Virus record (IMG/VR): IMGVR_UViG_3300035704_000306
Span: 1-22,324 of that record
DNA from: a virus
Strand: one strand, 5' to 3'
Length of the DNA: 22,324 nucleotides
The position numbers and the translations under genes were made by a program. Position 1 is the first letter of the stretch. Each line of letters starts with the position of its first letter. Below the pieces are notes generated by a model. That model saw only the letters and a program-made list of their open reading frames with translations, did not search any database and had not been told where the DNA came from. This document shows positions 6,671 through 21,115 of this stretch, in pieces.

Positions 6671-6699
6671 AAAAATGTAGCCCCAGCGGGATTCGAACC
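6671..6699. repeat. attL: distal copy of the tRNA-Glu 3' end
   Basis: These 29 bases are identical to 21087-21115 and correspond on the minus strand to the T-loop/acceptor end of tRNA-Glu plus flanking bases. The sequence then diverges into non-tRNA sequence. ACG plus an A-run on the outer side is also shared, differing by one A. This is the left attachment site. Confidence 0.9.
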
Positions 6700-6801
6700 T
6701 TTGCGCTAACGGAAACGGGCGAAATAGAGGTAGCCGGCGAGCACGAATCGGCCCCCTCCCGGCGTCCAAGACCCTCGATTTCCCTGATTTCTCCAGTTAC
6801 T

Positions 6802-6820
6802 CGTCACCCATCCGTCACCC
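6802..6820 (+). repeat. Left copy of putative integrase arm-site repeat
   Basis: CGTCACCCATCCGTCACCC is an imperfect tandem of CGTCACCC. An identical 19-mer lies at 21036-21054 near the other end, and a 17/19 match at 7533-7551. Its position about 100 bp inside attL fits an arm-type site for the N-terminal domain of the integrase. It directly abuts the stop codon of the gene at 6821. Confidence 0.65.
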
Positions 6821-7507
6821 TCAGGGTGATGGACTGGGGCTGAAAGTAGGCCAGATGTCTTTCACAATTAGCCCATACAGTGGGGCAAAGCAACACGCAT
6901 GAGCTGGCGGGCTGGCCTTTCCGTGGCGACCGCCTAGAGGATGCCAATGCCAGGTGGGACGTAGGCCCGGTTCCTGTGGCGTATTTTCCCAAATGAACTC
7001 GGCGTCGCCGGAGTGTATGCCGAAATCCGGGCTTTCTTCCCCCACCTGGAACCCAAAAACAAGGTACAGGTCATCGATAAGGTTCTGGCTTACGGCTCGG
7101 TCAACGAAGCAAAGCTGAGCAACCGTTTGCGTTGGATCCCCCGAACTACCCGCCTTTATACTGGGAAACCAAAGAACTCTCATCCTATCAGTCGGTAGCG
7201 TCGACGCTGGCCAAGGATTGCGCGAATTCTTGCCCATGCAGTAGACATGAACCTCGTACATATTATCGCGGCCAATGTTCTCTACGACGATGTCCCCCGA
7301 CAAGTTGTCTCCTGATCCTTCGCCGGTAATGCTGACGGCGGGGTACGCCATGAATTTCGGCAGCTCTTCGAGCGGCTTATGCGGCCAATGCGCTTCGACG
7401 AACGATATGAGAAGAATCAGCAGCGTCGGCGCGCCGAAGAAGATCGCGAGCTTGTTGGCGAGGCTGAGCCGGCGGAACCAATGCCATCGCCTAACTAGGT
7501 AAAGCAA
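6821..7507 (-). CDS. Hypothetical single-pass membrane protein
   Basis: I do not recognise this 228-aa protein. A basic start (MLYLVRRWHWFRRLSLANK) precedes one hydrophobic helix at about residues 19-38, followed by a soluble domain presumably outside the membrane. That domain has a beta-rich look (VSITGEGSGDNLSGDIVVENIGRD...). The last about 45 residues are rich in Pro, His and Cys and may not be conserved. The start is a TTG at 7507 without an obvious Shine-Dalgarno sequence, so the true start may differ. It is the leftmost gene of the element, transcribed toward attL, its stop touching an arm-type repeat. Such end positions often hold accessory genes. Confidence 0.5.
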   Translation of the reverse strand: MLYLVRRWHWFRRLSLANKLAIFFGAPTLLILLISFVEAHWPHKPLEELPKFMAYPAVSITGEGSGDNLSGDIVVENIGRDNMYEVHVYCMGKNSRNPWPASTLPTDRMRVLWFPSIKAGSSGDPTQTVAQLCFVDRAVSQNLIDDLYLVFGFQVGEESPDFGIHSGDAEFIWENTPQEPGLRPTWHWHPLGGRHGKASPPAHACCFAPLYGLIVKDIWPTFSPSPSP

Positions 7508-7532
7508 TATTTCTGTCCGCTATCCCAAGGCT

Positions 7533-7551
7533 CGTCATCCGTCCGTCACCC
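7533..7551 (+). repeat. Third, degenerate arm-type repeat
   Basis: CGTCATCCGTCCGTCACCC differs from the two terminal copies at 2 of 19 positions. It overlaps the stop codon of the small Cys-rich gene at 7546. It may be an additional integrase or excisionase site, or a decayed duplicate. Confidence 0.45.
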
Positions 7552-7716
7552 GCGTCGCTGCTTTTCAGGTCGCGGCTTTATGTAGGACGGACACTGACAA
7601 TTCTTCTCGGCCCTGTCCGACTTCTGCCATCCCCAATTGCAAAAGCCGCGTGCGTTTCCATCGGCCGCAACGTGACGCTCCCACGGATGCTCGCATCTGC
7701 GACAGGATGGTATCAT
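7546..7716 (-). CDS. Small Cys-rich (putative zinc-binding) protein
   Basis: This 56-aa protein starts at the ATG at 7716, which overlaps the TGA of the upstream gene in an ATGA arrangement (7713-7716), indicating translational coupling. It begins MIPSCRRCEHPWERH and has cysteines at residues 5, 8, 26, 40 and 42 plus three Trp. The spacing CxxC...C...CxC, with nearby His, suggests one structural zinc site. Basic residues throughout suggest nucleic-acid binding. No named family is recognised. It forms an operon with the putative regulator at 7713-8144. The coupling and Cys pattern make it likely to be a genuine short gene. Confidence 0.55.
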   Translation of the reverse strand: MIPSCRRCEHPWERHVAADGNARGFCNWGWQKSDRAEKNCQCPSYIKPRPEKQRRG

Positions 7717-8144
7717 TTTGCGGGCACGATTACCTCATCGTCGCGATCGAGTTCGGGTGGTAGGCTGCCGAACATCTGAATGACCTCCCACGGTTCTAAG
7801 CCAAGTTTTTTGCCTTCTTTGAGGGCGCCGGCGGCGTGTCGCGCCGCCCATTCGCCGAGGCTGAGGCGCCGTCTAACTCCCTGGCGTATCATCGATTTGT
7901 TAAATCGTTCGTACGCAGCAGGCACGCCACGACTCAGATCAGCGACGGCGTCGGCGTAGCGGCTCTTCGTGGCATATCCGAGACTTCGGCCGGGCGTTAG
8001 ATCCTGCCGCACGCGGTCCGCAGCCAAGGTTGACTCCGAATCGATGTAACCGAGCTTATCGGCCAGCGTTTCGATCGTGAAACCGACGTCCAGCTGCGCA
8101 CGTTTCACGGCCCTTGCGAACGTCGGGGTTGACGATTTTCCCAT
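7713..8144 (-). CDS. Putative regulator (repressor-like, divergent from early operon)
   Basis: This 143-aa protein has no secure family. The N-terminal part (FARAVKRAQLDVGFTIETLA, continuing DKLGY) has the look of an HTH region, followed by a helical basic stretch (TKSRYADAVADL) and an acidic C-terminus. It is transcribed divergently from the small HTH gene at 8202, the usual geometry of a phage lysogeny switch. The reading frame stays open upstream of the ATG (encoding SIEEFAAE), so the protein could begin slightly earlier at a non-ATG codon. It is translationally coupled to the Cys-rich gene downstream. A maintenance or immunity role is inferred from position only. Confidence 0.5.
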   Translation of the reverse strand: MGKSSTPTFARAVKRAQLDVGFTIETLADKLGYIDSESTLAADRVRQDLTPGRSLGYATKSRYADAVADLSRGVPAAYERFNKSMIRQGVRRRLSLGEWAARHAAGALKEGKKLGLEPWEVIQMFGSLPPELDRDDEVIVPAK

Positions 8145-8164
8145 TTCGGCGGCAAACTCTTCAA

Positions 8165-8204
8165 TGGATTTTTCGCAATTCCTGGTCCTATAATGGGAGC
8201 TATG
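8165..8204 (+). promoter_or_regulatory. Promoter of early operon, possibly leaderless
   Basis: A perfect -10 TATAAT at 8189-8194 is preceded by a weak -35 TGGATT (8165-8170) at 18 bp. Transcription would begin around 8201-8202, at the ATG at 8202 itself, so the mRNA may lack a leader, as with lambda cI from PRM. On the other strand ATTATA overlaps the same bases, so a divergent promoter for the 8144 gene could compete here. Confidence 0.5.
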
Positions 8205-8456
8205 GTAAGTTCGGCCGAGCGTGTATCAGACGCTCCCGCAAAGCGAAGTCTTTTGTGGCTTTTGGCATCGGGTTATTACGGCGGAATTCTCGCTGCCGCT
8301 TCGGCTCTCGGAATCGACTTCAAGACGCTGAGTCGGGCGTGCCAAGGCGCGAGCGTGTCGAAAGTGACGCGCGGTAAGTTGGAAAAAGCCTTCGGGTATC
8401 CCCTCGAGCGAATGCAACTCCCGATTGACCAAGTTCTAAAGGACTCGAGCCAGTGA
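8202..8456 (+). CDS. Small helix-turn-helix protein (early regulator)
   Basis: This 84-aa protein starts at the ATG at 8202. An in-frame ATG at 8193 overlaps the -10 box and is unlikely to be transcribed. The central part (GGILAAASALGIDFKTLSRA) fits a helix-turn-helix, followed by a basic helix and a short acidic tail. It heads an operon of four overlapping genes reading right. By position and size it could be the Cro-like partner of the divergent 7713-8144 gene. Its last codons overlap the next gene (GTGA). No close family is named. Confidence 0.55.
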   Translation: MVSSAERVSDAPAKRSLLWLLASGYYGGILAAASALGIDFKTLSRACQGASVSKVTRGKLEKAFGYPLERMQLPIDQVLKDSSQ

Positions 8457-8641
8457 CCGAGCTGCTAACCGCGGCCGATATCGCGCAACGCCTGCGGTGC
8501 TCGGCGCCGCACGTCCGGGCCCTTTGGGACGCCGGCGAGCTGCCGCACATTTCCATTCCCGGTACCCGTCCCGGAAGGCGCATGCGAAGACTCGACGCTG
8601 AGACCCTTGAGCGCTGGATCGAAGACCGGAGAGCGGCATGA
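8453..8641 (+). CDS. Excisionase-like HTH protein (MerR/HTH_17 type)
   Basis: This 62-aa protein has the standard layout of small Xis/AlpA-like DNA-binding proteins: LTAADIAQRLRCSAPHVRAL (winged helix recognition), a WDAGELPH turn, and a C-terminal RRLDAETLERWIEDRR helix. The GTG start at 8453 overlaps the previous stop (GTGA), and its own TGA overlaps the next ATG (ATGA). In integrated elements such proteins direct excision together with the integrase or act as early regulators. Here the integrase lies 10 kb away at the other end. The family fold is quite sure; the excisionase role is inferred. Confidence 0.7.
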   Translation: MTELLTAADIAQRLRCSAPHVRALWDAGELPHISIPGTRPGRRMRRLDAETLERWIEDRRAA

Positions 8642-8802
8642 AGTCGATCGATCGTGCTATCCACGCGCCGGCGCACCTCCTGCCGAAACAATATTCAGAG
8701 CGTCGCGAGATCCGCGATGCGGCGGCGTCCCGGCCGTTCGTGCTCGGGCAATGGAATCGAAGTAACGGAAAGCGCGTCGCGCAGTCGCGGGAGACGAAGT
8801 GA
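8638..8802 (+). CDS. Hypothetical 54-aa basic protein
   Basis: This short frame is wedged between the Xis-like gene (ATGA overlap at 8638-8641) and the tape-measure gene (TGATG at 8800-8804). It encodes MKSIDRAIHAPAHLLPKQYS... rich in Arg, Ala and Ser. There is no recognisable domain. Reality is supported mainly by perfect head-to-tail coupling on both sides. It may be a linker for translational coupling or a small DNA-binding or assembly factor. Confidence 0.5.
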   Translation: MKSIDRAIHAPAHLLPKQYSERREIRDAAASRPFVLGQWNRSNGKRVAQSRETK

Positions 8803-11800
8803 TGTCCGACCAGGACATGAGCCTTGACGTCGAGATCACTGGCAACTCCGGCGGCGCGCAAGACGCGATGCTCGGTTTCGTTAGCTCGATCGATCGCGTC
8901 CCTCAATCGGTAAATGTCAGCCAGGCATCGCTCGATCGCCTTAGCACCGCGCTCGACGGCATCGTCATGCAGCACGGCTTACTCGCCGACGCTTCCGACA
9001 AGACCAAAACGAAGGTCGACGACGTCACCAAGTCGACCACGGAAGGCTCGAAAGCCGCCGGAGAATTCAACAGCGTCGGCGGCGACATGGCGCGCATGAT
9101 GTCGTCGCTCGGCGTCGAGTCGGGAGCAGCTGCGGGCCGCATCGGCGCCTTTGCCGGCGCGCTTGGATCGCTGAAGAGTGCTGCTCCAGAAATTATCGCG
9201 ATCGTCTCGGCTGCAACGGCCGCGATCGCCGGGTTTGAAATTGGGAAAGAGGCCATCAAATCCGCCTCCGACCTCGAAGACTCCATGACACGGTTGGGCT
9301 CGGTTGTGCGAGCGCAGGGCGGAAGCTGGGTGGCATTATCCGGCCAAGTGAAAGAATTCACCGACCAGCAGATGCGCACCACGATCTTCAGCGATACGCA
9401 GGTAGTTGACTCGCTAAATCGGCTGGTCGCATCCGGAATGAGCGTCGCCGATTCGATGACGGTAACCCGCGTTTCCGAAGACCTGGCCGCCGCCACCGGA
9501 CACAACCTCATGGACGTAACCGTGCAGCTGATCGAAGCACAGCACGGGCGACTCATGGGCCTTGAATCTCTCGGTCTGCTAACGCGCCAGCAGATTAAAG
9601 ACGGCATGACCTTTAACGAGGTGCTGGAGGCCGTTGAGCAACACATGGGCGGAGCAGCGCAATCCGCCACAACGACCTTTTCCGGCGCACTCGCGGTTCT
9701 CCATAATTCGTGGTCGGGGCTGCTCGAGAACGCCGGTACGCCGTTCCTTGCACTCCTGACGGATATCGTGAGGGGCGTTACGCCCGTCGTCGATATTCTC
9801 TCTGGCGATCTTGCATCGTCACTGAAAGGATTCAGTTCCTGGGCGTCAGACCACGCACCGGAAATCGCGACGGCGTTTGGGCACATCGAAGACGATGCGC
9901 AGAACATGGTCACTTACTTTCAGAGTGACGTGGCGCCAGAAGCGGGAAAGCTATTTGATGCATTCGGAAATCTCGCCGATTCCATCAACGGGGCGGATTC
10001 TGCAGCCGGTAAGCATAGCGGATGGGATGATCTCGCAAAGGCGATCTCCGCGGTTTCGGATACGATTACTGGAGTCATCGGCCTTTTTACAAGCGCCGCG
10101 GATATGGTCGATGGGCTGTCGCATCGCATCCAGAGTTTGCCGGCTCCGGCCCGGTGGGCAGTCGGTCTAACGCCCGTTGGCGCCCTGCTGGATCCCGGCG
10201 ATCAATCTCAGCAATCTGCAGCTGCGACGACGCTACCACCGGGAGCCAGCGATTCACCAGCGGCCTTAGCCGCAGCATTCAAGCAGATGCAGCATGCCGC
10301 TCCCAGCGCGGGCCCACCGCACGTCCAAGGCGGCGATCAGCCACTTGGCGGCACCAAGGGCAGCGGATCACAGCCGCAATACTCGCCAATGGGGCTTATT
10401 GAGCCGACGCAGTTCACTGCTGTGGATGCGGCCGCGAAAGCGGCAACGGCGGCGGTTAAGGGACTGTCCGAAACCGAGGCCGGCCTGACGCAGCGGATGA
10501 ACGGCGCGTCGACGATGTCGGACTACCTCGCCGACAAACAAAAACTCTATACCGCCAGCATTTCTGGAACTGAAGCTGTAATCGAAAAGCTCTCCTCGGC
10601 GCACAAAGTCGAGAATAACGCGCTCGCGACTCTTACGCCTGAAGTGGAAGCCGCTCGCGAGAAATACAATAGCTTGGCGACCGCCTACAACACTGCCGAC
10701 AAGGCCCTTTCGCAGACAACCAAGCCGACGAAAGACCAAACGAAGGCGGTTGCGGACGCGAAGTCCGCTGCGGATGCCGCGAAGAAGAGCTACGACGATT
10801 TAAATACGCAGCTCACGAAGACGACTTCGGCGCTTCAGACGACAAACACTGAACTCGACAAGCAAAAGGCTGCGCTCGCTGCCTTAAATAACGAAGTCAC
10901 GGATCTTACTCGTGAGTACGGTGAATGGCAGAAAAAGCAGGCTGCCGCTCAGAACGAAAGCGTTGCAACTCTCGGCATGTCGACGCGGCAGCTGTACGAC
11001 TACTATGCGCAAGCCTACGCCAGTGACTCGGCGCTTTGGTTGTACTACCAAGAGCAAAAGAACGTCACGATGATGACGGAGATCGAGCCGCAGCTCAAGC
11101 AAGATCAGCAGAAGATGAATCAAGAGCAGCTCAAGCTCTACCAAGAGGATTACCAAAACAAGATCAATTTCGAATCGTCGGCAGTGTCTCGAATATCCTC
11201 GTTCATGGATGCGATCGTTATCCAGCACAAATCTATGGCCGACGAACTCAAAACCGTGTACGCGGATATCGAGGGATACTTTATCGACATGGTCGCCAAA
11301 ATGCTGACCGAGGCGATGATGGCGGCCCCCTGGATACAAGCGCTGTTCGGTGGTGGCGGCGTAGATCCGGCGACGTCGAGCACGGACGTGCAGCTCGGCG
11401 CAGGCGGCCCGGGTTCGTTTAGCGCGTCGGCAATCTCGGGCGGAGCATCGTCGCCGCTCGGCGCAGCGATTTCGCGCGCGATGTCGCCGTCCGGCGGCGG
11501 CGGCAGTGTCGGAAGCGGATCGTACGCGTTCGGCGGCGGCGCCGGCGGTGGTTACGGCGGCGGCGGTAGCATGTCGCCCGACTTCAGTATGTCGGGCGGT
11601 GGCCTCGGTCCGCAATCAGGTTCCGCGCCATCGTCCTCCGGTGGGGCCAGCGGCGGGAGCTACGGCGCTTCGGGATACCACTACGGCCTGGGCGGCTCTC
11701 CGGCGATGACGGGACTCGCTGGCGTGCTGGCGCGTAGCGGTCTCGGCGGTATGTTTGGTGTCGGGATGGCCGGCGACATGATCGGTGGCCTCGCGTTCGG

Positions 11801-12740
11801 CAACAAAGGTTACTCCGCGATCGGCGGTGCGGTCGGCGGGATACTTGGCGGCGCCGGGCTCGGAGCGCTCCTCCTTGGTGGGTTCGGAGCCGGCGGAATG
11901 GGCGGAATGCTCGCCGGACTTCTCGCTGGCGGACCGGCAGGGTGGGGCATTCTCGCGGCAGGTGCGTTGCTGGGCGCCTTTGGTGGCTCCATGTTCGGCG
12001 ATCACTTCAATCCGGCTGACGAACCCGACCAAGGCTCGACGCAAGACGCGTGGGGCATCGCGAACGCCGACATGCAAGGCATGACGTCGGCGAACCCAAT
12101 GAACGCCAGCGGCAAACAGTACGTCATGGACAGTCAGACGTCAGCGGCGACCAGTGGCAAAGGCTGGAATCTGTTGATGGAGCAGTTCGTTTCGAAGTTC
12201 CGCGGTAGCCAGAACGCACTGCCGTCGGATCTTCAGGGCGTCTTTCCGCAGATCGAGCAGCTCTGGGGTGGCGCGACCGACAAGCAGTTCTTCAACTCCG
12301 ACGGCAAAGACGGTTACCTTGACATCGGCAGCGGCAAGCGCGCATTGTGGGGCGAATTCTGGGGCGTTGTCCAGGCGCACGGTCAAGAGATTTCGCAGCT
12401 CATGCAAACGTTCACGCCGACCGATATTTATCTGTCGTCGCTGAGCGGAGGAATGCGCAGCGGTGGAAGCTCGACGCCGAGCCCTGGCGGCGGTGGGTTC
12501 AACAGCCCATTCGCGCTTCAGTCGCCGGCCGGCGGTAACGACAACTCCAACGCGATCGCGTCGGGCGGGCCGGGTAAACTTGGTGGCCTCGTCAGCCAGC
12601 GGCTGGCGCAAAGCATCTCAATCGTCGTACACCAGCACAACTCGGGAACGATGGTCGACAACAACAACATGGCACGCGCTATTCAGGACGCCGTGGGCCA
12701 AGCATTACCAGGCGCGCTTCAAGATTTAAATATGCGCTGA
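8802..12740 (+). CDS. Phage tail tape-measure protein
   Basis: The product is 1312 aa. Tape-measure proteins set tail length during assembly and leave the tail with the DNA. The ATG at 8802 has GGGAG 8 bases upstream; a GTG at 8799 would add one residue. Residues about 150-330 carry the typical tape-measure core (AIKSASDLEDSMTRLGSV, TRVSEDLAAATGHN, a SATTTFSGALAVLHNSWSGL segment). Residues about 540-713 form a long Ala/Lys/Thr-rich coiled coil. Residues about 897-940 are nearly pure Gly/Ser, and about 968-1066 form hydrophobic Gly-rich membrane-like segments. The end ARAIQDAVGQALPGALQDL is a common tape-measure terminus. At about 0.15 nm per residue the length would correspond to a tail near 200 nm. 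No tail chaperone pair precedes it; instead it sits in the early operon. Confidence 0.85.
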   Translation: MSDQDMSLDVEITGNSGGAQDAMLGFVSSIDRVPQSVNVSQASLDRLSTALDGIVMQHGLLADASDKTKTKVDDVTKSTTEGSKAAGEFNSVGGDMARMMSSLGVESGAAAGRIGAFAGALGSLKSAAPEIIAIVSAATAAIAGFEIGKEAIKSASDLEDSMTRLGSVVRAQGGSWVALSGQVKEFTDQQMRTTIFSDTQVVDSLNRLVASGMSVADSMTVTRVSEDLAAATGHNLMDVTVQLIEAQHGRLMGLESLGLLTRQQIKDGMTFNEVLEAVEQHMGGAAQSATTTFSGALAVLHNSWSGLLENAGTPFLALLTDIVRGVTPVVDILSGDLASSLKGFSSWASDHAPEIATAFGHIEDDAQNMVTYFQSDVAPEAGKLFDAFGNLADSINGADSAAGKHSGWDDLAKAISAVSDTITGVIGLFTSAADMVDGLSHRIQSLPAPARWAVGLTPVGALLDPGDQSQQSAAATTLPPGASDSPAALAAAFKQMQHAAPSAGPPHVQGGDQPLGGTKGSGSQPQYSPMGLIEPTQFTAVDAAAKAATAAVKGLSETEAGLTQRMNGASTMSDYLADKQKLYTASISGTEAVIEKLSSAHKVENNALATLTPEVEAAREKYNSLATAYNTADKALSQTTKPTKDQTKAVADAKSAADAAKKSYDDLNTQLTKTTSALQTTNTELDKQKAALAALNNEVTDLTREYGEWQKKQAAAQNESVATLGMSTRQLYDYYAQAYASDSALWLYYQEQKNVTMMTEIEPQLKQDQQKMNQEQLKLYQEDYQNKINFESSAVSRISSFMDAIVIQHKSMADELKTVYADIEGYFIDMVAKMLTEAMMAAPWIQALFGGGGVDPATSSTDVQLGAGGPGSFSASAISGGASSPLGAAISRAMSPSGGGGSVGSGSYAFGGGAGGGYGGGGSMSPDFSMSGGGLGPQSGSAPSSSGGASGGSYGASGYHYGLGGSPAMTGLAGVLARSGLGGMFGVGMAGDMIGGLAFGNKGYSAIGGAVGGILGGAGLGALLLGGFGAGGMGGMLAGLLAGGPAGWGILAAGALLGAFGGSMFGDHFNPADEPDQGSTQDAWGIANADMQGMTSANPMNASGKQYVMDSQTSAATSGKGWNLLMEQFVSKFRGSQNALPSDLQGVFPQIEQLWGGATDKQFFNSDGKDGYLDIGSGKRALWGEFWGVVQAHGQEISQLMQTFTPTDIYLSSLSGGMRSGGSSTPSPGGGGFNSPFALQSPAGGNDNSNAIASGGPGKLGGLVSQRLAQSISIVVHQHNSGTMVDNNNMARAIQDAVGQALPGALQDLNMR

Positions 12741-12767
12741 ACCTTTCTTTTGCAGGGAGATCCTCAC

Positions 12768-13241
12768 ATGAAACTAGCTTCGGTCGAAGTCGCGCTCCAT
12801 AACGTCGAGCGCCCGAAAAACAAAGAACACAGCCAGCTTCTCGCGGAGATCGAAACGCTCCAAGCCGAGCGACGCGAGAACCTCACCAAGAGCGCCGCGT
12901 CTGGCGGTGACACCAAACTCGCCGCAAGGCGCCGCGACATCGATTCTCGGCTTGAAGAGGTCGCCGCGCGGTGCATCGTGCTCGAAGACGAGGTCGGGAT
13001 CGAGAACGACATCTTGCTGCAGGCGGCACTCGAAAAGAACTTCGCGGACGTCGCGATCGAGAATCAAAAGGTTGATGCCGCAAAAGCCGCCGCGGACGAA
13101 GCCGAAAAGGCTTGGCAAGATGCCTTAGCAGCCGTAGATGCGGCCGAAAGGCAGCGGGGAGCCGTCGACCGCACGTTCACGATCGGCAACGCGATAACAA
13201 TGAATAGAAACGTCAACTCCGGCGCCCAACTCAGCGCCTGA
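12768..13241 (+). CDS. Hypothetical coiled-coil protein
   Basis: This 157-aa protein is predicted to be almost entirely alpha-helical, with heptad-like stretches (HSQLLAEIETLQAERRENL, AAKAAADEAEKAWQDALAAV) and a short polar tail. The ATG at 12768 is chosen because AGGGAGA (12754-12760) precedes it at good spacing; a frame opening at 12750 lacks a ribosome binding site. It lies 27 bp after the tape measure and probably shares its transcript. It could be a scaffold-like or tail-assembly helper, but no family is recognised. Confidence 0.6.
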   Translation: MKLASVEVALHNVERPKNKEHSQLLAEIETLQAERRENLTKSAASGGDTKLAARRRDIDSRLEEVAARCIVLEDEVGIENDILLQAALEKNFADVAIENQKVDAAKAAADEAEKAWQDALAAVDAAERQRGAVDRTFTIGNAITMNRNVNSGAQLSA

Positions 13242-13262
13242 TCCCTCGAAAGAAATAGCAAA

Positions 13263-13562
13263 ATGCCTAACCGTGAAATCTCGACGAAGCTCGGTCTTTC
13301 GACCGACTCGATCGTTAAGGCGGTCGTCAAAAAGACCATGGAAGACTTAATCAAGCAAAAGCGGACCGCTAAGCCGATTCAAAAGCCCGCTGCCAAAGCG
13401 GCGGAGGTCAAAACGTTCGCTCAACGTCAAGTCGAGGTCGCGGCAGTCACCAACACCGTTAAAGCCTTGCCGAAGCCGACGAAGGATCAGATCGCAGCCG
13501 CTGGTGGCGGCGTTCTCGGCTATCTGCGCGCGACTCGCGAGCTGCAGCGCTCGTCGGAATAG
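13263..13562 (+). CDS. Hypothetical 99-aa basic protein
   Basis: I do not recognise this protein. It opens MPNREISTKLGLSTDSIVKA, which could be a short DNA-binding helix pair, followed by a Lys/Ala/Pro-rich middle and the C-terminal GGGVLGYLRATRELQRSSE. A weak AAAGAAA lies upstream of the ATG. It follows the coiled-coil gene by 21 bp, so it likely belongs to the same operon. The basic composition suggests nucleic-acid contact, but this is inference. Confidence 0.5.
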   Translation: MPNREISTKLGLSTDSIVKAVVKKTMEDLIKQKRTAKPIQKPAAKAAEVKTFAQRQVEVAAVTNTVKALPKPTKDQIAAAGGGVLGYLRATRELQRSSE

Positions 13563-13778: not shown

Positions 13779-14651
13779 ATGTCTGATCGATACGTAAAGC
13801 TGCCCGTCAGCGTCGTCAACGACGAACGCCTGAGCGCTGAAGCCGTCGTGGCCTATGCGATCATGCTCGACGCCTCACGGGATGGCAAGTGCATTATCGG
13901 GTTCGAACGGCTGGGCAAGCGGCTGCACCGATCGCGTGACACCGGACGCCGCATCGTGCGCGAGCTGATCGATGCCGGATACGTGCGCTCGCTCCCAATC
14001 AAGAATGGGCAGCGACCGAGATACGAGCTGCAGAAAGTCGCGCCGGCGACGGTCCCGTCGACCTATACGGAGCGCCAGCGGCTTGGGGGCTATAGATCGC
14101 GACGGGCTACAGCGAACGACCGCGGTGCGGAGTACTTCGAGAAAGCCATGCGCGAAAAACAACGCCGGCAGGGCATCCTAACCGGTGGCATCGATGCTAC
14201 GGGTCAAGAAGCCTCAACCTGTGGCACCGATGCAACGGGTCCATCCGACAAAACCCGTGGCACGGATGCAACGGGTACCGGTAGCGTGGACGCCACGGGA
14301 ACCCGTAGCACCGATGCAACAGACCCGTTGCACCCATGCAACGAAACCCGTAGCACCCATGCCACCCATTCTAGACTTAATTCTAGACTTATAATTCTAG
14401 GGCCCGAATCCAAAAACGAAAACGCCGCAGACGAACCGAGCAAAGATCTCGTCGATCTCATCCGCCGATGCGGCTTCAACGGCGACGCCGAAAGCAAAGC
14501 CATCTGGGCGACGCATCAGACCGCCGGCCCACTGGGCGCCGATCGCTACCTCCTCGGCTGGCTACGGTTCGCGCTGAATCAGGACGGCATCGAAGACCGG
14601 CTCGACTTCGCGGTCCGCAAGACGCAACGCATGGAACGGGTGCCCGACTAA
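13779..14651 (+). CDS. Replication initiator, winged helix, origin inside gene
   Basis: This 290-aa protein is probably the origin-binding initiator of the element. Residues about 1-85 (DRYVKLPVSVVNDERLSAEA, FERLGKRLHRSRDTGRRIVR) form a winged-helix domain of the kind found in phage and plasmid initiators. Residues about 134-197 are low-complexity, with repeated xTDATG motifs encoded by DNA iterons. Residues 200-290 form a conserved-looking helical C-terminus (DLVDLIRRCGFNGDAESKAI) that may recruit replication proteins. Layout and internal origin parallel lambda O, although no sequence kinship to O is claimed. Its TAA overlaps the next ATG (TAATG). No clear Shine-Dalgarno sequence precedes the ATG at 13779. 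Confidence 0.65.
   Translation: MSDRYVKLPVSVVNDERLSAEAVVAYAIMLDASRDGKCIIGFERLGKRLHRSRDTGRRIVRELIDAGYVRSLPIKNGQRPRYELQKVAPATVPSTYTERQRLGGYRSRRATANDRGAEYFEKAMREKQRRQGILTGGIDATGQEASTCGTDATGPSDKTRGTDATGTGSVDATGTRSTDATDPLHPCNETRSTHATHSRLNSRLIILGPESKNENAADEPSKDLVDLIRRCGFNGDAESKAIWATHQTAGPLGADRYLLGWLRFALNQDGIEDRLDFAVRKTQRMERVPD
14180..14369 (+). repeat. Seven palindromic iterons (putative origin)
   Basis: Seven 25-bp units start at 14180, 14216, 14252, 14276, 14300, 14322 and 14345. Each is a nested palindrome: outer arms ACCCGT and ACGGGT, inner arms GCA and TGC around CCGA or CGGA. Some units are degenerate. In unit 6, CGTTGCA pairs perfectly with TGCAACG. Spacings are 36, 36, 24, 24, 22 and 23. 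The 22-base step puts unit 6 in another reading frame and the 23-base step restores it, so the DNA rather than the peptide repeat is what is preserved. Initiator-binding iterons are the best explanation. Confidence 0.8.
14369..14400 (+). other. AT-rich tract next to iterons (putative unwinding element)
   Basis: Directly after the last iteron TTCTAGACTTA occurs twice (14369-14379, 14381-14391), followed by TTCTAG (14395-14400). The tract is the most AT-rich part of the gene. Iterons followed by an AT-rich region are the layout of lambda-type origins, where initiator binding opens the adjacent DNA. Confidence 0.65.
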
Positions 14652-15145
14652 TGGCCCGCGGCAACACGTGCAAGGTCTGCATCCACGACCAGCGCAAAGC
14701 CATCGACCTCGCTCTCGGTCACGGAAAACCGTGTCGGGAGCTCGCAACGAAATTTCAGGTCAGTCAGCAATCCCTGGAACGGCACCGAGCGAGGCACCTA
14801 CAGCCGGCCCTCGCTCGCGCAGCAGTTCGCCGCGAGGGTATCACGGCAGAGGCGCTGGTCGACAAGCTTCTGGGCTACATCGAAGCGGCTGAACGCGGCG
14901 TCGCCGTCGCGGAACAAAATGGCGATCTTACGGGTTTGGCTCGGTGCCTGAAAGAGGCGCATGCGATTACGCTCAGCGTCGGAAAGACGATCGGGATCTG
15001 GAGCGATCGGCCGCAGATCGTGAACGACAACCGCCGGCAGCTGATGGTGAACCTCGACGCCCGCGGCCTCGACGAGCTGCTGAAGATGCGCGAGGGCCTC
15101 GAGGATCTTGGCGTGCCGGCGCTTACGACGACGGGCGCTTCTTGA
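14651..15145 (+). CDS. CxxC/helix-turn-helix phage protein (possible small terminase)
   Basis: The product is 164 aa. The ATG at 14651 overlaps the initiator stop (TAATG). The N-terminus CKVCIH (Cys7, Cys10, His12) could bind zinc, followed by an HTH: CRELATKFQVSQQSLERHRA. The rest is helical (EALVDKLLGYIEAAERGVAV and an Asn/Arg-rich middle). Proteins of this CxxC-HTH type are frequent in phages, where they are annotated as DNA-binding or small terminase-like proteins. Since the element has a large terminase but no obvious small subunit, this is one of two candidates; the other is the gene at 16268. A regulator is equally possible. Confidence 0.5.
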   Translation: MARGNTCKVCIHDQRKAIDLALGHGKPCRELATKFQVSQQSLERHRARHLQPALARAAVRREGITAEALVDKLLGYIEAAERGVAVAEQNGDLTGLARCLKEAHAITLSVGKTIGIWSDRPQIVNDNRRQLMVNLDARGLDELLKMREGLEDLGVPALTTTGAS

Positions 15146-15317
15146 AATGGCGCTTGAGATCGGCGAGCTTCGCGCCCTCGATCAGCGACTCGATGATCGT
15201 CCCCTCGGTGACGCCGGCGAAGCCTTCGAAGCGCAGCTCGGACTTCATCGCCTCGAGCTTGCGCTTCGGTCCCGGCGCCAGGTCGAAGCTCGTCCGCCGC
15301 TTGGGTTCCTTGGCCAT
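15123..15317 (-). CDS. Ribbon-helix-helix-like small DNA-binding protein
   Basis: The product is 64 aa. The start KRRTSFDLAPGPKRKLEAMK matches a basic beta-strand followed by a helix, and TEGTIIESLIEG the second helix, as in MetJ/Arc/ParD-type proteins. It is read divergently from the serine recombinase, and CGGTTT repeats between them overlap the recombinase promoter, so it may be the local repressor. Its 3' end overlaps the end of the convergent 14651-15145 gene by 23 bp. No toxin gene is adjacent on its strand, so a toxin-antitoxin role is unsupported. The fold is inferred from pattern. Confidence 0.5.
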   Translation of the reverse strand: MAKEPKRRTSFDLAPGPKRKLEAMKSELRFEGFAGVTEGTIIESLIEGAKLADLKRHFKKRPSS

Positions 15318-15341
15318 GCCCGAGGGAATGCCACGCCAAGG

Positions 15342-15395
15342 CGGTTTTCCCGCTTCACGGTTTCCCGGTTTTGCCTCTTGTCGGTTTTTCGGTAT
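15342..15395 (+). promoter_or_regulatory. CGGTTT direct-repeat operator in divergent promoter region
   Basis: CGGTTT occurs at 15342, 15358, 15366 and 15382, with a partial CGGTAT at 15390. Series of short direct repeats are typical of ribbon-helix-helix operators; small serine recombinase sites are the alternative. The last copies overlap the -35 region of the recombinase promoter, so occupancy should repress it. Confidence 0.5.
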
Positions 15396-15428
15396 TCGTG
15401 TATGATGCCGTTACAATACCAAGGAGGT
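15378..15428 (+). promoter_or_regulatory. Recombinase promoter and strong ribosome binding site
   Basis: TTGTCG (15378-15383), a 17-bp spacer and TATGAT (15401-15406) form a good sigma-70-like promoter. AAGGAGGT (15421-15428) is a near-perfect Shine-Dalgarno 9 bases before the ATG at 15438. It decides the start and rejects the long upstream extension of the frame to 15108. Confidence 0.65.
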
Positions 15429-15437
15429 CCCCCACAC

Positions 15438-16130
15438 ATGACCACAACGGCAAAGACTATCTCGTACCTACGCGTCTCGACTCGCAAGCAGGGTGCGTCG
15501 GGACTTGGACTCGAGGCGCAGCGCGCGGCAGTCGCCCAGTACGTCGTCACCAACGGCTGCGAGCACGTCGCCGAATACCTCGAGATCGAATCTGCCCGCC
15601 GCGACGAGCTCGACAACCGTCCGCAGCTGCGCAACGCCCTGGCCCACGCCAAGCGGTCCGGCGCAACGCTCGTCATCGCGAAGCTCGATCGCCTCGCTCG
15701 CAGCGTGAAGGTCGTCTCGGCGTTGATGGCCGCCGGCGTCGACTTCGTATGCTGCGATCAGCCCGTCGCCAATCGGTTCACGATCCACATCTTCGCAGCG
15801 GTCGCCGAGAACGAGTCGCGGCAGATCAGCGAACGGACCAAGGCCGCAATGGCGGCTGCGAAGGCGCGCGGCCGCGTTTTCGGCTGCCCAACGAATCTTA
15901 CGTCGGCCGCACGGCTTAAAGGCGCCCAGCGGGCTGCGGTGGCTCGTAGCAGCGCCGCTCGCGACGCTTACCGAGACCTGGTTCCGATCGTGCAATCGAT
16001 GCGCGGCGACGGCGCGAGCTTATCGAGCATCGCCGAGCACCTCAACGCCGCCGGTCACACGACTCGTCGGCAGCGCCCATGGACGAAGGTTCAAGTGTGC
16101 CGGCTCCTGGCGCACGGAGCGGCCGCATAA
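15438..16130 (+). CDS. Small serine recombinase (resolvase/invertase family)
   Basis: This 230-aa protein cuts and rejoins DNA through a 5'-phosphoserine. The catalytic domain begins ISYLRVSTRKQ (Arg12, nucleophile Ser14). It carries GLGLEAQ, the LDRLARS motif (residues 83-89) with active-site Arg, and the helix AAVAENESRQISERTKAAMA into the DNA-binding arm (about 120-146). Residues about 175-230 form a C-terminal HTH (SLSSIAEHLNAAGHTTRRQR). Length and layout match resolvases and invertases rather than large serine integrases. In this element integration is explained by the tyrosine integrase, so this enzyme may resolve multimers or invert a segment. It overlaps the next gene (TAATG). Confidence 0.85.
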   Translation: MTTTAKTISYLRVSTRKQGASGLGLEAQRAAVAQYVVTNGCEHVAEYLEIESARRDELDNRPQLRNALAHAKRSGATLVIAKLDRLARSVKVVSALMAAGVDFVCCDQPVANRFTIHIFAAVAENESRQISERTKAAMAAAKARGRVFGCPTNLTSAARLKGAQRAAVARSSAARDAYRDLVPIVQSMRGDGASLSSIAEHLNAAGHTTRRQRPWTKVQVCRLLAHGAAA

Positions 16131-16267
16131 TGGGCGACGTCGTACAGCTTTTCGACGCACCGACCCGCGCCGCAGTGGCCTGGAGTGCCTTGGCGGAGTG
16201 GCTTCGGTCGCCCGAGTTTCTTGAAGCCGTAGACCCCAACTTTCGACGTGACGAGGACCCAGCGTAA
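16130..16267 (+). CDS. Hypothetical 45-aa protein with MGDVVQLFD start
   Basis: The start at 16130 overlaps the recombinase TAA (TAATG). An in-frame ATG at 16079 inside the recombinase gene has no support. The protein begins MGDVVQLFDAPTR, then a short amphipathic helix (WSALAEWLRSPEFLEAVD) and an acidic tail. Its first nine residues nearly match those of the next gene (MGDVIRLFD). No family is recognised. Its TAA immediately precedes the ATG of the next gene. Confidence 0.5.
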   Translation: MGDVVQLFDAPTRAAVAWSALAEWLRSPEFLEAVDPNFRRDEDPA

Positions 16268-16723
16268 ATGGGCGACGTCATTCGTCTTTTCGACCGGTTC
16301 AGCGACCGCAAGCAGGTCGAGCTTGCGTTGACTGCCGCGGACGCTCCGCCGCCCGAAGATCGTCTCGAGCGCTGCGCCAGGCTCTCTGCTGAGGTTTGGG
16401 CGAGGCTACCCGAACGCGATGGCCAACAGCACCTGAGAACCACGATGACCGACCTGCGGGTCGACGCAGCGTTGGCGCTCGTTCGCGACGAAGCGCGGTT
16501 GGCGCGCGAAAACCCGGCGGCTCCACTCAGTCCGTACGCCAAAATCTGCCTTGACCTGGACGCCATCGCGGCGAGAATCGAACGCATGGAGGCTATGGCG
16601 GAGTGCCTCGACTGCGAAGATAAGCCCGGCGCCGAGGTCCTGGCGAAGGTCCGCGCCCACGGCACGAAACGTCGCGCTAAAAGCCTTTCGCGCGCACCGG
16701 GTGACCCAAAATGCCCGGCGTAA
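16268..16723 (+). CDS. Hypothetical helical protein, possible small terminase
   Basis: This 151-aa protein lies immediately upstream of the large terminase and overlaps it by 13 bp, the usual place of a small terminase subunit. It begins MGDVIRLFDRF, nearly the same as the preceding small protein, then continues as an Arg/Ala/Glu-rich helical protein (LERCARLSAEVWARLPE, TMTDLRVDAALALVRDE). It ends in a basic region (KVRAHGTKRRAKSLSRAPG). No HTH is evident, so a small terminase call rests on position alone. Confidence 0.5.
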   Translation: MGDVIRLFDRFSDRKQVELALTAADAPPPEDRLERCARLSAEVWARLPERDGQQHLRTTMTDLRVDAALALVRDEARLARENPAAPLSPYAKICLDLDAIAARIERMEAMAECLDCEDKPGAEVLAKVRAHGTKRRAKSLSRAPGDPKCPA

Positions 16724-18297
16724 CGCAGGCGGAAGCCCAAGCCGCGCGCTTCGCCGTCGACGCTGCGATCGCGCGCAAGTCGTTCCTCGAGTTTTGCCCG
16801 CTGGTCTATCCCGGATTCGTCGCGGCGCCGCACCTGGTGCTGTTGGCCGAACTGCTCGAGCGTGTCGAACGCGGCGAACTTCGTCGGATTATCGTCTCGC
16901 TGCATCCAGGTTCGGGGAAGTCGACGCTGCTGCAGCTATTCCAAAGCTGGTATCTCGGTCGCGACCCCAAGCGCCGGATAATCTCGACGTCGGCGGCGCA
17001 GCGGCTCGTCGTTCGCAACTCGCGTGCGGTGCGCGACGCGCTGCGCGAGCCATCGTGGCCGTTTGAAGCCAAGCTTGCGCCCGAAGCGACCGCGGCGGAC
17101 GTTTGGGAGACGACGGCGGGCGGCGGCATGTTTGCGGTGGGCGTCGAGGGTGTCGTGACGGGTTGGCGTGCGCCGTTGATCGTGTGCGACGACTTGCAGG
17201 ACGGCCCCGGGTCGAAGCTCGAGCGCGACAACCTCGAGCAGTGGTTCCGTGGTAAGCTCCTGCCGCGTCTCGAGCCAAATGGCGCCGTCGTGATCGTGCA
17301 AACGCGCTGGAGCAAAGATGATCTCCCCGGCCGGGTGATGGACGGCGCGCGCGGCAAGGCATGGCACTACGTGCGTATCCCGGCGCTGAGCGAAGGCGAA
17401 GGCGACCCTCTCGGCCGGCCCGAGGGCGAAGCGTTGTGGCCAGGTCGTTTCAATGTCGAGGCGCTCGAGGAGATCCGCGCGGACTCCGGCCCGAAGCATT
17501 TTGCGGCACAATATCAGGGCGCTCCGGTCATCGATGGCGGTGAAGTGTTCCGGACCGAATGGTTCGGACGGTATCACGCAATCGATCTGCCGCGTGACCC
17601 CAATACCGGCGGCCTGAAAATGACGCGGATCGTCTGCGCGCTCGATGCCGCGTCCAAGACCGGCGTGCGTAACGACTATTCGGTCGTACTCGCGCTCGGC
17701 GAGCACTCCGGCAAGTTCTACGTGCTCGACCTGCGCCGCGCACGCGTGGAATATCCCGAACTCAAGCGCATGGTCCTGAGCGCACATGATCGCTGGCGCC
17801 CGTCGCACTTTTACGTTGAGGACACCGCCAACGCGACGGCGCTGATTCAGCAGCTCAAAAGCGAATCGCACCTGCCGATTATCCCGGTGAAGGTCACGGC
17901 GTCGAAGGATGCGCGCGCGGAGGCGGTTAGCGGCATCGTCGAGTCGGGCCGGATCATGCTGCCCTACGACGCTCCGTGGCTTGCGGACTTCGAGGACGAG
18001 GTTTGCTCATTCCCGAGCGGCGACCACGACGATATCGTCGACGCGTTCACGATGGTGCTTTCGCAGGCGGTGAAGAAGCCGTTTTCGTTCATATTCTCGT
18101 TCGGCGCCGACGACGTTGTCGACGATCTCACGATCAACAGCTCGGCAGAAGAGACGGCAGAATACAAGCAGGCGTGGAAAGAACGCGAGCGCGAGGAAAA
18201 AGAACGCGAGCGCGAGGAAGCTGCGAATCTTGGCGGCCTCGTCGTGCCGCCCGACTTCACCGGCGGTGTCGGCAACGCATTGAAGCGGATTCTTTGA
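16711..18297 (+). CDS. terL: Terminase large subunit
   Basis: This 528-aa protein is the packaging motor and nuclease that pumps DNA into a procapsid and cuts it. The ATPase domain has Walker A HPGSGKST (residues 65-72), Walker B LIVCDD (156-161) and the coupling motif QTRWSKDDLPGR (197-208). The RNase H-like nuclease domain supplies acidic residues: D312 in LDAASKTG, E370 and D371 in YVEDTANA, and the HDDIVDAF motif near 439-446. Length and motif order match phage terminases of the family with a C-terminal nuclease, and nothing appears truncated. A strongly charged KEREREEKEREREE helix (about 490-503) lies near the C-terminus. No portal gene follows, which is abnormal for a phage. A complete motor fits a satellite that packages its own DNA into helper heads. 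Confidence 0.93.
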   Translation: MPGVTQAEAQAARFAVDAAIARKSFLEFCPLVYPGFVAAPHLVLLAELLERVERGELRRIIVSLHPGSGKSTLLQLFQSWYLGRDPKRRIISTSAAQRLVVRNSRAVRDALREPSWPFEAKLAPEATAADVWETTAGGGMFAVGVEGVVTGWRAPLIVCDDLQDGPGSKLERDNLEQWFRGKLLPRLEPNGAVVIVQTRWSKDDLPGRVMDGARGKAWHYVRIPALSEGEGDPLGRPEGEALWPGRFNVEALEEIRADSGPKHFAAQYQGAPVIDGGEVFRTEWFGRYHAIDLPRDPNTGGLKMTRIVCALDAASKTGVRNDYSVVLALGEHSGKFYVLDLRRARVEYPELKRMVLSAHDRWRPSHFYVEDTANATALIQQLKSESHLPIIPVKVTASKDARAEAVSGIVESGRIMLPYDAPWLADFEDEVCSFPSGDHDDIVDAFTMVLSQAVKKPFSFIFSFGADDVVDDLTINSSAEETAEYKQAWKEREREEKEREREEAANLGGLVVPPDFTGGVGNALKRIL

Positions 18298-18533
18298 TGC
18301 GTTCGCTGCGCCAAGCCGATCCGGACGCGATGGCCAGGCGACGCCGGGCGCGCACGGCCGCACCAACCGAGCTCGAGATTGAGTCGACGGCACTGATCGT
18401 ACCGCCAGCCACGGCGCCGAGGTGCCCAATCTGCGACGTGACCATGATGCGCCGCCAATCGCGCGCGAAGTCGTACTTTTGGGGATGCACGCGCTATCCG
18501 CACTGCCGCGGAACGCGCCCGACAAAGACGTAA
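18297..18533 (+). CDS. C4 zinc-finger protein (topoisomerase-tail type)
   Basis: The product is 78 aa. The ATG at 18297 overlaps the terminase stop (TGATG). A basic N-terminus (MARRRRARTAAPTELEIES) leads to a C4 zinc-ribbon: CPICDVTMMRRQ then FWGCTRYPHC and RGTRP. This matches the zinc fingers at the C-termini of bacterial topoisomerase I, which bind single-stranded DNA. Free-standing copies occur in phages and mobile elements as DNA-binding accessories, often of unknown purpose. The coupling to terminase suggests a packaging or DNA-end role, but this is inference. Confidence 0.7.
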   Translation: MRSLRQADPDAMARRRRARTAAPTELEIESTALIVPPATAPRCPICDVTMMRRQSRAKSYFWGCTRYPHCRGTRPTKT

Positions 18534-18547
18534 AAACACAACAGCCC

Positions 18548-18571
18548 CGGCGGCGCGCAAAATCGCCGCCG
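18548..18571 (+). terminator. GC-rich intergenic hairpin
   Basis: CGGCGGCG (18548-18555) pairs perfectly with CGCCGCCG (18564-18571) around an 8-base loop (CGCAAAAT). No T-run follows, so it is not a textbook intrinsic terminator. It may weaken read-through or protect the mRNA 3' end between the packaging and integration modules. Confidence 0.35.
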
Positions 18572-18600
18572 AGGCAACCAAAGAAAGGTTTGGACTTTCC

Positions 18601-18999
18601 ATGGCTCTCAATATCGTATCACATTCAGACCACGAAGCAGTGCTGGAAATGGTGACACACTGGCTACATCGCGTTAGCAACACTAAACGAAATTTCCCAG
18701 AAGCGTTGGCCGATCTTGCATCTGAGCAATGCCTACACGATGCACTGCTCGATGCCGGCGATAAAAGTGCGCGGCAGGAACTCTGCATCGAAGAAATCTT
18801 TGGCGCCGGCGTTAACTTTGGAATCGCGGCCGCATTGGCGGTGCTGGAGAACCCGTTCTCGGTGGATATCGAGCGTCTAAGGACGGCGATTGGCGCGGCA
18901 GACAAAGCGATCCGAGTCCTTGCGGAGTCTGCTCGACGTGATACGGCCTTGGTCGCCGCGCACAGAATCGTCGAAGACCGGGAGCCTGTTACGCCGTGA
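18601..18999 (+). CDS. Hypothetical 132-aa protein
   Basis: I recognise no family. It starts at the ATG at 18601, about 12 bases after AAAGG. The protein is soluble and helical, with an acidic, Ala-rich composition (LADLASEQCLHDALLDAGDK, VDIERLRTAIGAADKAI). It overlaps the GTG start of the integrase (GTGA at 18996-18999), so the two are translationally coupled. A partner or regulator of the integrase is plausible by position only. Confidence 0.5.
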   Translation: MALNIVSHSDHEAVLEMVTHWLHRVSNTKRNFPEALADLASEQCLHDALLDAGDKSARQELCIEEIFGAGVNFGIAAALAVLENPFSVDIERLRTAIGAADKAIRVLAESARRDTALVAAHRIVEDREPVTP

Positions 19000-20150
19000 G
19001 AGGACACATTCGGCAATGGCGCAAGCCCGGCGCGTATAAAGTCTGGCTCGAGCATCCAACCGTTGACGGCAAGCGCAAACGCGAGACGTTCGTCGTTCAC
19101 GGTTCGAAAAAAGATGCTGAGGCCAAAATGGCCGAGCGGATTGCCGCAATCGAGCGTTCCGACTACTCGCGAGCGGAGCGCTCGACTCTCTCCGACGCCG
19201 CCGATCGGTGGCTAAGAGCACGCAGGCCGAATGTTGGCGCGAAAACGTATGCGCGTTATGAAGGTATCGTGCGCGACTACATCAAGCCGACGATCGGTGA
19301 CGTGCAGCTGCGTAAGTTGACGCCGCTGCATATCGAGGATGCGATATCCAAATGGCGCGATGCCGTGCCGAAAAAACGGCTAGGTGGTCGACTGGGCAAC
19401 AGAAGCTTGCACCATTTGTTCGCGACGCTGAATACCATGCTAAAGCAGGGCGTTCGGTGGAATCTTATTGCGCGCAATCCGTGCGAGGCAGTCTCGCCGC
19501 CGTCAAAGGGTCGCGCGGAGATCGTCGCGCTCGACGAAGCCGGCGCCGTCGCGTTGCTCGAAGGTCTGCACGACACATGCCTTGCCGGACCGGTTAGATT
19601 GGCGTTGCTTACGGGGTTACGGCGAGGCGAGTTGCTCGCGCTGAAATGGGATGACGTCGACCTAGATCGACGCGTCGCCGTCGTAAAGCGGTCGCTCGAG
19701 CAGTGTCAAGGCGGCGCGTGCGCGTTCAAAGACACGAAGACGAAGAAGAGCCGGCGACCTGTTCCCTTGACAGCAGCGGTCGTTGACGCCCTGCGCGCGC
19801 ATCGCGTCGCGCAGAACGCTATAAAGCTTTCGACCGGTGGCAACTACAACCCAGAGCGGCTTCTTTTCCCTGATCCCTTGACCGGTCTTCCATGGGGCCC
19901 AGACCGTTTTTCATCGCAGTTCTACTATCGAGTGCACAAACTGGGCGTGCCAGTAACTTTCCACGGCCTGCGTCATAGCTTCGCGACAATCGCCCTGCGC
20001 GCACGGGTGCCTATGAAGCTAGTCTCGGACATTCTGGGTCACACGACGACGGCAATTACCGCGGATCTCTACACGCACGTTCTCGAAGATATGCAGCACG
20101 AGGCTGCCGATCGCGTTAGCGCGGCATTGGTGGCCGCAGCACTGGCTTAG
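18996..20150 (+). CDS. int: Tyrosine integrase of the element
   Basis: This 384-aa protein catalyses recombination between the element and the tRNA-Glu attachment site through a 3'-phosphotyrosine. The N-terminal residues about 1-55 (GHIRQWRKPGAYKVWLEHP) resemble the arm-binding domain. Residues about 63-125 form the SAM-like core-binding domain (TYARYEGIVRDYIKPTIGDV). The catalytic domain has R209 in TGLRRGE, Lys near 248-251, H323 and R326 in FHGLRHSF, H349 in ILGHTTT and Y359 in DLYTHV. The GTG start overlaps the upstream TGA, with GGGAG 11 bases upstream. Full length and all catalytic residues present imply a working enzyme. It lies about 0.9 kb from attR, at the tRNA end, and converges with the cargo gene (stops overlap). 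Confidence 0.93.
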   Translation: MRGHIRQWRKPGAYKVWLEHPTVDGKRKRETFVVHGSKKDAEAKMAERIAAIERSDYSRAERSTLSDAADRWLRARRPNVGAKTYARYEGIVRDYIKPTIGDVQLRKLTPLHIEDAISKWRDAVPKKRLGGRLGNRSLHHLFATLNTMLKQGVRWNLIARNPCEAVSPPSKGRAEIVALDEAGAVALLEGLHDTCLAGPVRLALLTGLRRGELLALKWDDVDLDRRVAVVKRSLEQCQGGACAFKDTKTKKSRRPVPLTAAVVDALRAHRVAQNAIKLSTGGNYNPERLLFPDPLTGLPWGPDRFSSQFYYRVHKLGVPVTFHGLRHSFATIALRARVPMKLVSDILGHTTTAITADLYTHVLEDMQHEAADRVSAALVAAALA

Positions 20151-21031
20151 TTACTTAGTGAGGCATCGATACGTGCGAGAAGGCTCCGGTCTGGGGCAGA
20201 CTCTGAGGCCAGCTTATCGGTCAGGGGCTTCCATCTAGCCGCGAGATCAGCAATACGCTCACCGAGTTCAGGTATCATGATGGAAAACGGTAGAACTATC
20301 GAGAGCACATGCCCGATTGCGCGGGCAAAGACGCGATGGAATTGGGGATCGTGATAGAGTGCCGCTTGAATTTGAGGCCCGGCTTGCAGAATGCTATCGC
20401 CGGCATCCGCCAATGCTGTGATATCGGCGTGATTCCACTTGCTATTCATCTTCGTTTCATAGCTATCTTGAGCAAAGCTCTGGGCCTTGTCTTCTTTCGA
20501 ATAGGCCCCGCGCTCTATTTTCTCCATTGTCTCGCCGTCGATCTCCGCGTAAACTTTTTCCATTGTCGTTCGTACTGGGTGACCGTCGGGAACTCTCGCT
20601 GCAAGCTCTTTGCGCGACGGCTCAAGGGCGTTTACCATCTGCAGCGCAATATCTTTGCGGCCGGGCAATAGCCGGCAACGCGTTGCGATTTGTCCCAGTG
20701 CGCGCGCGTGGATGTAGGCGGGCTTGGTTCTTCCGGAAGACGCAAGCAATATAAACGCTTCGCCTTCTGTGGCGCCAATAGCCGCACTCGCGACGAGGAC
20801 GTCCCAAAGTGCGCGAAGCTCCTCGTTCTGGCTCGGTGTGAATGTCCGCGCGGCCCCAACGACTGCGTACAGCACGCTAACTGCGTCGATCATCAAATCC
20901 ATCATCGCGGGATCGACCACGTTGACGGGACCCCGCGGGATCAACACTTTGACTACGGTGGATCCGTCATAGCCAGTTGCGCGTAATGGGCCTCTTCGTT
21001 TCGGAAGGGGCGGTTCAGGAGCCTCATTCAT
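20147..21031 (-). CDS. Unknown cargo protein between integrase and attR
   Basis: This 294-aa, mostly helical protein is not recognised. It has a Pro-rich basic N-terminus (MNEAPEPPLPKRRGPLRATG), a helical central part (EELRALWDVLVASAAIGATE, RTKPAYIHARALGQIATRC) and a hydrophobic stretch near the end (AIGHVLSIVLPFSIMIPEL). The pattern of conserved-looking RALGQ and SKWNHADI motifs is loosely like DUF5677-type proteins, but this is weak. It converges on the integrase and starts 5 bp inside the right arm-type repeat, so integrase binding could affect its expression. The location next to int and att is where satellites and prophages often carry accessory genes such as anti-phage defences or modifiers. 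Confidence 0.55.
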   Translation of the reverse strand: MNEAPEPPLPKRRGPLRATGYDGSTVVKVLIPRGPVNVVDPAMMDLMIDAVSVLYAVVGAARTFTPSQNEELRALWDVLVASAAIGATEGEAFILLASSGRTKPAYIHARALGQIATRCRLLPGRKDIALQMVNALEPSRKELAARVPDGHPVRTTMEKVYAEIDGETMEKIERGAYSKEDKAQSFAQDSYETKMNSKWNHADITALADAGDSILQAGPQIQAALYHDPQFHRVFARAIGHVLSIVLPFSIMIPELGERIADLAARWKPLTDKLASESAPDRSLLARIDASLSN

Positions 21032-21035
21032 ATTG

Positions 21036-21054
21036 CGTCACCCATCCGTCACCC
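21036..21054 (+). repeat. Right copy of putative integrase arm-site repeat
   Basis: This 19-mer is identical to 6802-6820 and lies 32 bp inside attR. With the left copy it marks both ends of the element in the same direct orientation. Tyrosine integrases with an N-terminal arm domain use such sites besides the core. Confidence 0.65.
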
Positions 21055-21086
21055 AAATGCAGTCGTGCAACGTGTTTTAAGCACGA

Positions 21087-21115
21087 AAAAATGTAGCCCC
21101 AGCGGGATTCGAACC
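21087..21115. repeat. attR: copy within the intact tRNA-Glu gene
   Basis: This 29-bp segment is identical to attL. On the minus strand it covers the last 22 bases of the tRNA plus 7 bases of flank. The insertion keeps the tRNA complete because the element supplies the 3' end. Confidence 0.9.

Follow-up and report, generated by a model that had tools for sequence, protein, structure and literature searches.

Tape measure proteins (TMPs) encoded by phage satellites have been characterized experimentally in the PLE satellites of Vibrio cholerae, in which a satellite-encoded TMP acts beside a helper-encoded capsid and tail to form chimeric tails (PMC12987554, published in Nature in March 2026). 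In that system the satellite TMP replaces the phage TMP in virions, and deletion of tmp cuts PLE transduction by 96–99.9%; a difference of 95 aa in TMP length gave a difference of 10 nm. The same paper notes putative tmp genes in some cf-PICIs (Extended Data Fig. 10). The cf-PICIs carry an integrase, a replication gene, and TerL (and possibly TerS), and by definition encode their own capsid, portal, protease, and connectors (as summarized in PMC10690885). PICI and SaPI elements are att-bounded islands of 12–16 kb with int/xis, a replication initiator, and a packaging gene. An additional comparison is offered by the Pseudomonas satellite prophage AH14b (PMC4936722), a 16.8-kb element that lacks a structural gene set, in which no head, neck, or tail genes were identified and which is thought to use the capsid of a larger prophage.

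The window analyzed here (a whole 22,324-base virus record, IMGVR_UViG_3300035704_000306) contains a 14.4-kb element that encodes both a terminase large subunit (TerL) and a TMP, but in which no capsid genes were detected. As compared with PLE, it occurs in a different phylum, carries its own TerL (whereas a PLE study cited in PMC12987554 is titled as manipulation of the viral packaging motor), has no recognized chaperone gene beside the TMP, and encodes a TMP related to those of siphophages with integrases rather than to the lytic contractile phage ICP1. As compared with cf-PICIs, no capsid, portal, protease, or connector gene was detected. As compared with PICIs and SaPIs, size, att bounds, int/xis, and initiator are shared, but the element carries a large terminase and a TMP, and no capsid remodeler was recognized. 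Satellite TMPs are therefore already known; what appears new is the combination of TerL and TMP without a capsid, the phylum, and recurrence across two TMP families, though an earlier description of such satellites outside the open-access literature cannot be ruled out.

The element is bounded by an exact 29-bp direct repeat, AAAAATGTAGCCCCAGCGGGATTCGAACC, at 6671–6699 (attL) and 21087–21115 (attR). The longest match between the same two 500-bp flanks after shuffling was 15 bp in 300 trials. The right copy is the 3′ end of an intact tRNA-Glu(CTC) at 21093–21166 on the minus strand, the integration target. The host is an uncultured, soil-type member of the Eremiobacterota: the flanking nucleotidyltransferase is 89% identical to that of the closest sequenced host relative (the metagenome-assembled genome palsa_1529), and the best 20 hits are all of that phylum. 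In palsa_1529, the same tRNA-Glu/tRNA-Gln block lies about 0.1 kb from a homolog of the window's outer integrase fragment, a truncated integrase located just outside attL, with no 14-kb insert between; this is an empty site for the element.

Profile searches of the element's ORFs recovered an intact 528-aa TerL at 16711–18297 (+) (phrog_38, E 4.9e-112; Terminase_6C, E 4e-16) that retains Walker A (GSGKS), Walker B (CDD), and nuclease Asp motifs, as well as a 1313-aa TMP at 8799–12740 (+) (phrog_58, E 7.8e-13). Also identified were an excisionase-like HTH_17 protein at 8453–8641 (+) (E 6e-10), a DnaD/O-like replication initiator at 13779–14651 (+), a serine recombinase of the resolvase/invertase type at about 15435–16130 (+) (E 2e-29), and a 384-aa tyrosine integrase at 18996–20150 (+). 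The initiator gene carries six 21-bp repeats within its frame at 14180–14365, a putative origin. A 165-aa HTH protein at 14648–15145 (+) is found beside TerL in most related elements; it is a small-terminase candidate by position only, as its AlphaFold model (pLDDT 76) returned no significant PDB match. None of the element's ORFs scanned matched a portal, capsid, protease, tail-tube, baseplate, holin, endolysin, or other lysis family, and no convincing defense family was found in the element. No tail assembly chaperone or hub gene was recognized beside the TMP.

At the attL end, a 228-aa protein with an N-terminal hydrophobic stretch (6821–7507, −) has no family; a 56-aa Cys-rich protein (7546–7716, −) weakly matches phrog_1311, of unknown function; and a 143-aa protein without a family (7713–8144, −) occupies the position of a repressor. 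These are followed by an 87-aa protein (8193–8456, +) conserved in the sister element described below (47% over 64 aa). Directly downstream of the TMP lies a gene for a 163-aa protein (12750–13241, +); a 158-aa gene sits in the same place in the sister element, without detectable sequence similarity. A 99-aa protein (13263–13562, +) is conserved in the sister element and in one TMP-less relative (G100:C4, below). Upstream of TerL are a 62-aa protein (16079–16267, +), 60% identical over 45 aa to one of the phage contig G001 (below), and a 151-aa protein (16268–16723, +) whose end overlaps the start of TerL. A 132-aa protein with no family (18601–18999, +) precedes the integrase. The largest unknown, a 294-aa protein (20147–21031, −), lies reversed at the attR end and is predicted, with low confidence, to be all-helical, with no sign of a capsid fold. 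It has weak relatives in six genomes of the phylum, a scan of viral contigs with this gene confirmed none, and it is probably cargo.

The original prediction, made from the sequence alone, was of a satellite-like element with its own terminase and tape measure, an integrase, an Xis-like protein, an initiator with origin, and precise att repeats, but no portal, capsid, protease, tail-tube, baseplate, or lysis genes. These data confirm that observation, with minor corrections: the TMP frame is 1313 aa counting the GTG start, rather than 1312, and the serine recombinase and the conserved 165-aa HTH gene had not been mentioned. The accompanying interpretation, that such a satellite would redirect both packaging and tail length, with decay of a larger prophage as the alternative, is only partly supported: the satellite reading stands and decay is disfavored, but redirection of tail length is not supported. 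The TMP is 1313 aa and that of the sister element 1258 aa, as compared with 1238 aa in the closest phage; at the usual 0.15 nm per residue, the difference of about 75 aa predicts a change of only about 11 nm. Nor is a satellite-encoded TMP unprecedented, given the PLE satellites and the putative tmp genes of cf-PICIs.

Whether relatives are small elements or full 35–50 kb prophages had been set in advance as a test of the satellite reading. A total of 149 Eremiobacterota genomes were searched with TerL, the TMP, a second TMP family, and the 165-aa HTH protein; most relatives are in metagenome-assembled genomes, and only this phylum was covered in depth. Relatives of TerL occur in 21 genomes and relatives of the window TMP in 9. 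One contig, G100:C39 (contigs are given here by genome and contig number), has both in the window's order: the 87-aa gene, xis, TMP (1258 aa), small genes, initiator, HTH gene, TerL, and integrase. This sister element spans 13.7 kb and is bounded by a 35-bp repeat at tRNA-Leu(CAA). Identities to the window are 28–36% (TMP), 43% (TerL), and 45% (C-terminal integrase), so the architecture is old. Other att-bounded TerL elements, without TMP or capsid, are G100:C4 (12.4 kb, tRNA-Pro), G082:C72 (11.3 kb, tRNA-Leu, the same site as G100:C39), and G084:C17 (8.9 kb, tRNA-Thr). The window's TerL groups with that of G100:C4 (support 100/100; dN 0.34, dS about 1.6), which has no TMP, indicating that TMP moves separately from TerL.

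A second TMP family was identified in contigs G037:C9 (730 aa), G010:C105 (642 aa), and G002:C32 (660 aa); these TMPs are related to each other at 27–30% and were not detected by the window's TMP profile. G010:C105 is an att-bounded 16.8-kb element, while no att pair was identified for G037:C9 and G002:C32, both of which carry the second TMP and TerL. A search with these sequences recovered two att-bounded elements in which no TerL was found, G002:C28 (18.7 kb) and G039:C9 (18.5 kb), as well as G114:C5, a 16.5-kb element at tRNA-Pro with a small terminase (phrog_4102, E 3e-17), the TMP, and a hub-like gene, reminiscent of the BhuB gene carried by PLE11. The same TMP family lies after a tail sheath gene (phrog_23) in a phage contig, G014:C201, followed by a relative of the hub-like gene, consistent with a contractile-tailed helper type; the hub-like assignment rests on position only. 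Scans of the larger unknown ORFs of these elements gave replication, regulation, and unknown families only, though genes in relatives were called with a simple ORF picker and not every small ORF was included. Counting att-bounded elements in which no capsid genes were detected, six carry a TMP: the window element, G100:C39, G010:C105, G002:C28, G039:C9, and G114:C5.

Full phages of the phylum have a homologous TMP plus tail and head modules, and one phage, G075, carries homologs of both TerL and TMP. No match to the window TMP was found in 50,697 public phage records, and a genome scan with its C-terminus confirmed none. However, a 57.4-kb IMG/VR contig (G001), a siphophage with portal, head morphogenesis, and tail genes and a TerL of another family, encodes a TMP whose C-terminal third is 85% identical to that of the window, while the rest is about 30% identical. 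DNA identity reaches 93–97% around residues 1060–1240 but is about 40–45% over most of the N-terminal two-thirds, and synonymous divergence along the gene runs from 0.22 to 0.45 to saturation. This is the pattern of recombination between satellite and phage lineages, rather than of plain common descent of the whole gene. The shared part has dN/dS of about 0.21 over residues 841–1275 (0.09 for residues 1066–1240). The TMP of G100:C39 is in turn closest to other phages (47–49% to G051 at the N-terminus, 46% to G117 further in) rather than to that of the window. Each satellite TMP thus resembles different phages; a single clade for the two siphophage-type satellite TMPs is not supported but not rejected either (AU p 0.275), and a single origin followed by exchange cannot be excluded.

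These data suggest, with moderate confidence, that the element is an integrative satellite of Eremiobacterota siphophages that makes chimeric virions. In this view, on helper infection or induction it would excise by Int/Xis, replicate from the repeats inside its initiator gene, package its DNA with its own TerL (perhaps with the 165-aa HTH protein as small subunit) into helper-made heads, and have the helper's tail tube, chaperones, and tip assemble around its own TMP instead of the helper's. Carrying the TMP would bias tail assembly towards satellite particles and could protect the element from TMP-directed defenses or exclusion, while tail length would hardly change. The gene set, att bounds, relatives, intact reading frames, and mosaicism with a phage TMP are directly evident from the sequences, whereas mobilization, helper identity, incorporation of the TMP into particles, and the benefit to the satellite are inferred, the helper from TMP mosaicism alone and incorporation by analogy with PLE. 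Weighing against this model, no chaperone or hub gene was recognized beside this TMP, in contrast to PLE; the close TerL relatives G100:C4 and G082:C72 lack a TMP, so that it is not essential to the TerL-satellite way of life; and G001, the closest phage by TMP, has a TerL of another family, so that the pairing of the satellite TerL with a helper portal remains putative.

Of the alternatives, the one that survives best, though it appears unlikely, is that the TMP is not incorporated but acts as a decoy or interference protein, titrating helper tail tube or chaperones and so limiting the helper, while satellite particles use unmodified helper tails. The optional presence of the TMP among related elements and the strong divergence of its N-terminal two-thirds from the phage TMP that shares its C-terminus would be consistent with this. 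However, full-length, phage-like sizes and conservation of both ends are unnecessary for a decoy, and the PLE precedent shows incorporation.

Less likely still is a decayed prophage, in which a 35–50 kb phage lost its head, tail, and lysis modules and TerL and TMP happen to remain. Both genes are homologous to genes of full phages of the phylum, G075 has both, and a truncated integrase lies just outside attL. However, the gene order is not a phage order, with xis directly before TMP and TMP before rep and TerL; the same order recurs with intact frames in G100:C39; seven further att-bounded elements of 8.9–18.7 kb show no capsid genes in scans of their larger ORFs; and the TMP and TerL frames are intact, with dN/dS near 0.2. 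A complete phage whose head genes are too diverged to recognize is very improbable, despite several proteins without a family, as the element is only 14.4 kb, no unassigned ORF exceeds the 294 aa of the reversed, cargo-like, predicted all-helical protein, and portal, capsid, protease, and tube do not fit in the space left.

A broader reading remains possible but tentative: that a widespread set of satellites in Eremiobacterota has repeatedly captured the TMP of whichever helper it exploits, both siphophage-type and myophage-type and often with its own TerL, so that DNA choice and tail core are satellite-specified while capsids and tail tubes are borrowed. Tail-core replacement would then be a general, convergent satellite strategy, rather than one confined to Vibrio. 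The finding of TMP genes of two families in at least six att-bounded elements without detected capsid genes in one uncultured phylum would turn the Vibrio case into a general pattern and indicate that tail assembly is a target of satellite parasitism, as capsid assembly is. It would also supply natural TMP mosaics that suggest which part of the TMP must match the helper (the C-terminal third) and which may diverge.

A tyrosine integrase truncated at its N-terminus lies just outside attL (window 5734-6594); a homolog is found next to the same tRNA-Glu in L014, the corresponding locus of the related host genome palsa_1529, where the 14-kb element is absent. This fragment looks like the remnant of an earlier island at the same tRNA. 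A 62-aa protein (window 16079-16267) is shared with phage G001, the 57.4-kb contig (L012:10797-10931; 60% identity over 45 aa, 79% DNA identity over 91 nt), and represents a second gene in common with that phage.

Six 21-bp repeats (window 14180-14365) lie inside the initiator reading frame, as in lambda O; the sister element, G100:C39, instead has three 18-bp repeats just after its initiator gene (L138:14688-14754). The sister element also encodes, just after the TMP cluster, a 144-aa protein (L138:12909-13343) that is 26% identical over 117 aa to a phage protein matching the prohead protease family XkdF (Peptidase_S78_2), and is a possible capsid-interfering fragment. Additionally, a SEC-C protein of 306-317 aa is conserved at 43-64% between TerL and integrase in three satellites (L138:18116-19069, L140:9308-10228, and L143:12606-13550), though it is absent from the window.

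The TMP-bearing satellite G002:C28 carries a SIR2-type candidate defence gene as cargo (L199:4455-6215; PDC-S65, E 2e-162). This satellite is one of several distinct TerL- or TMP-bearing satellite pieces held by a single Eremiobacterota MAG, palsa_1529 (G002; contigs C101, C32, C114, C21, C28, C26, and C74), a heavy load for one genome.
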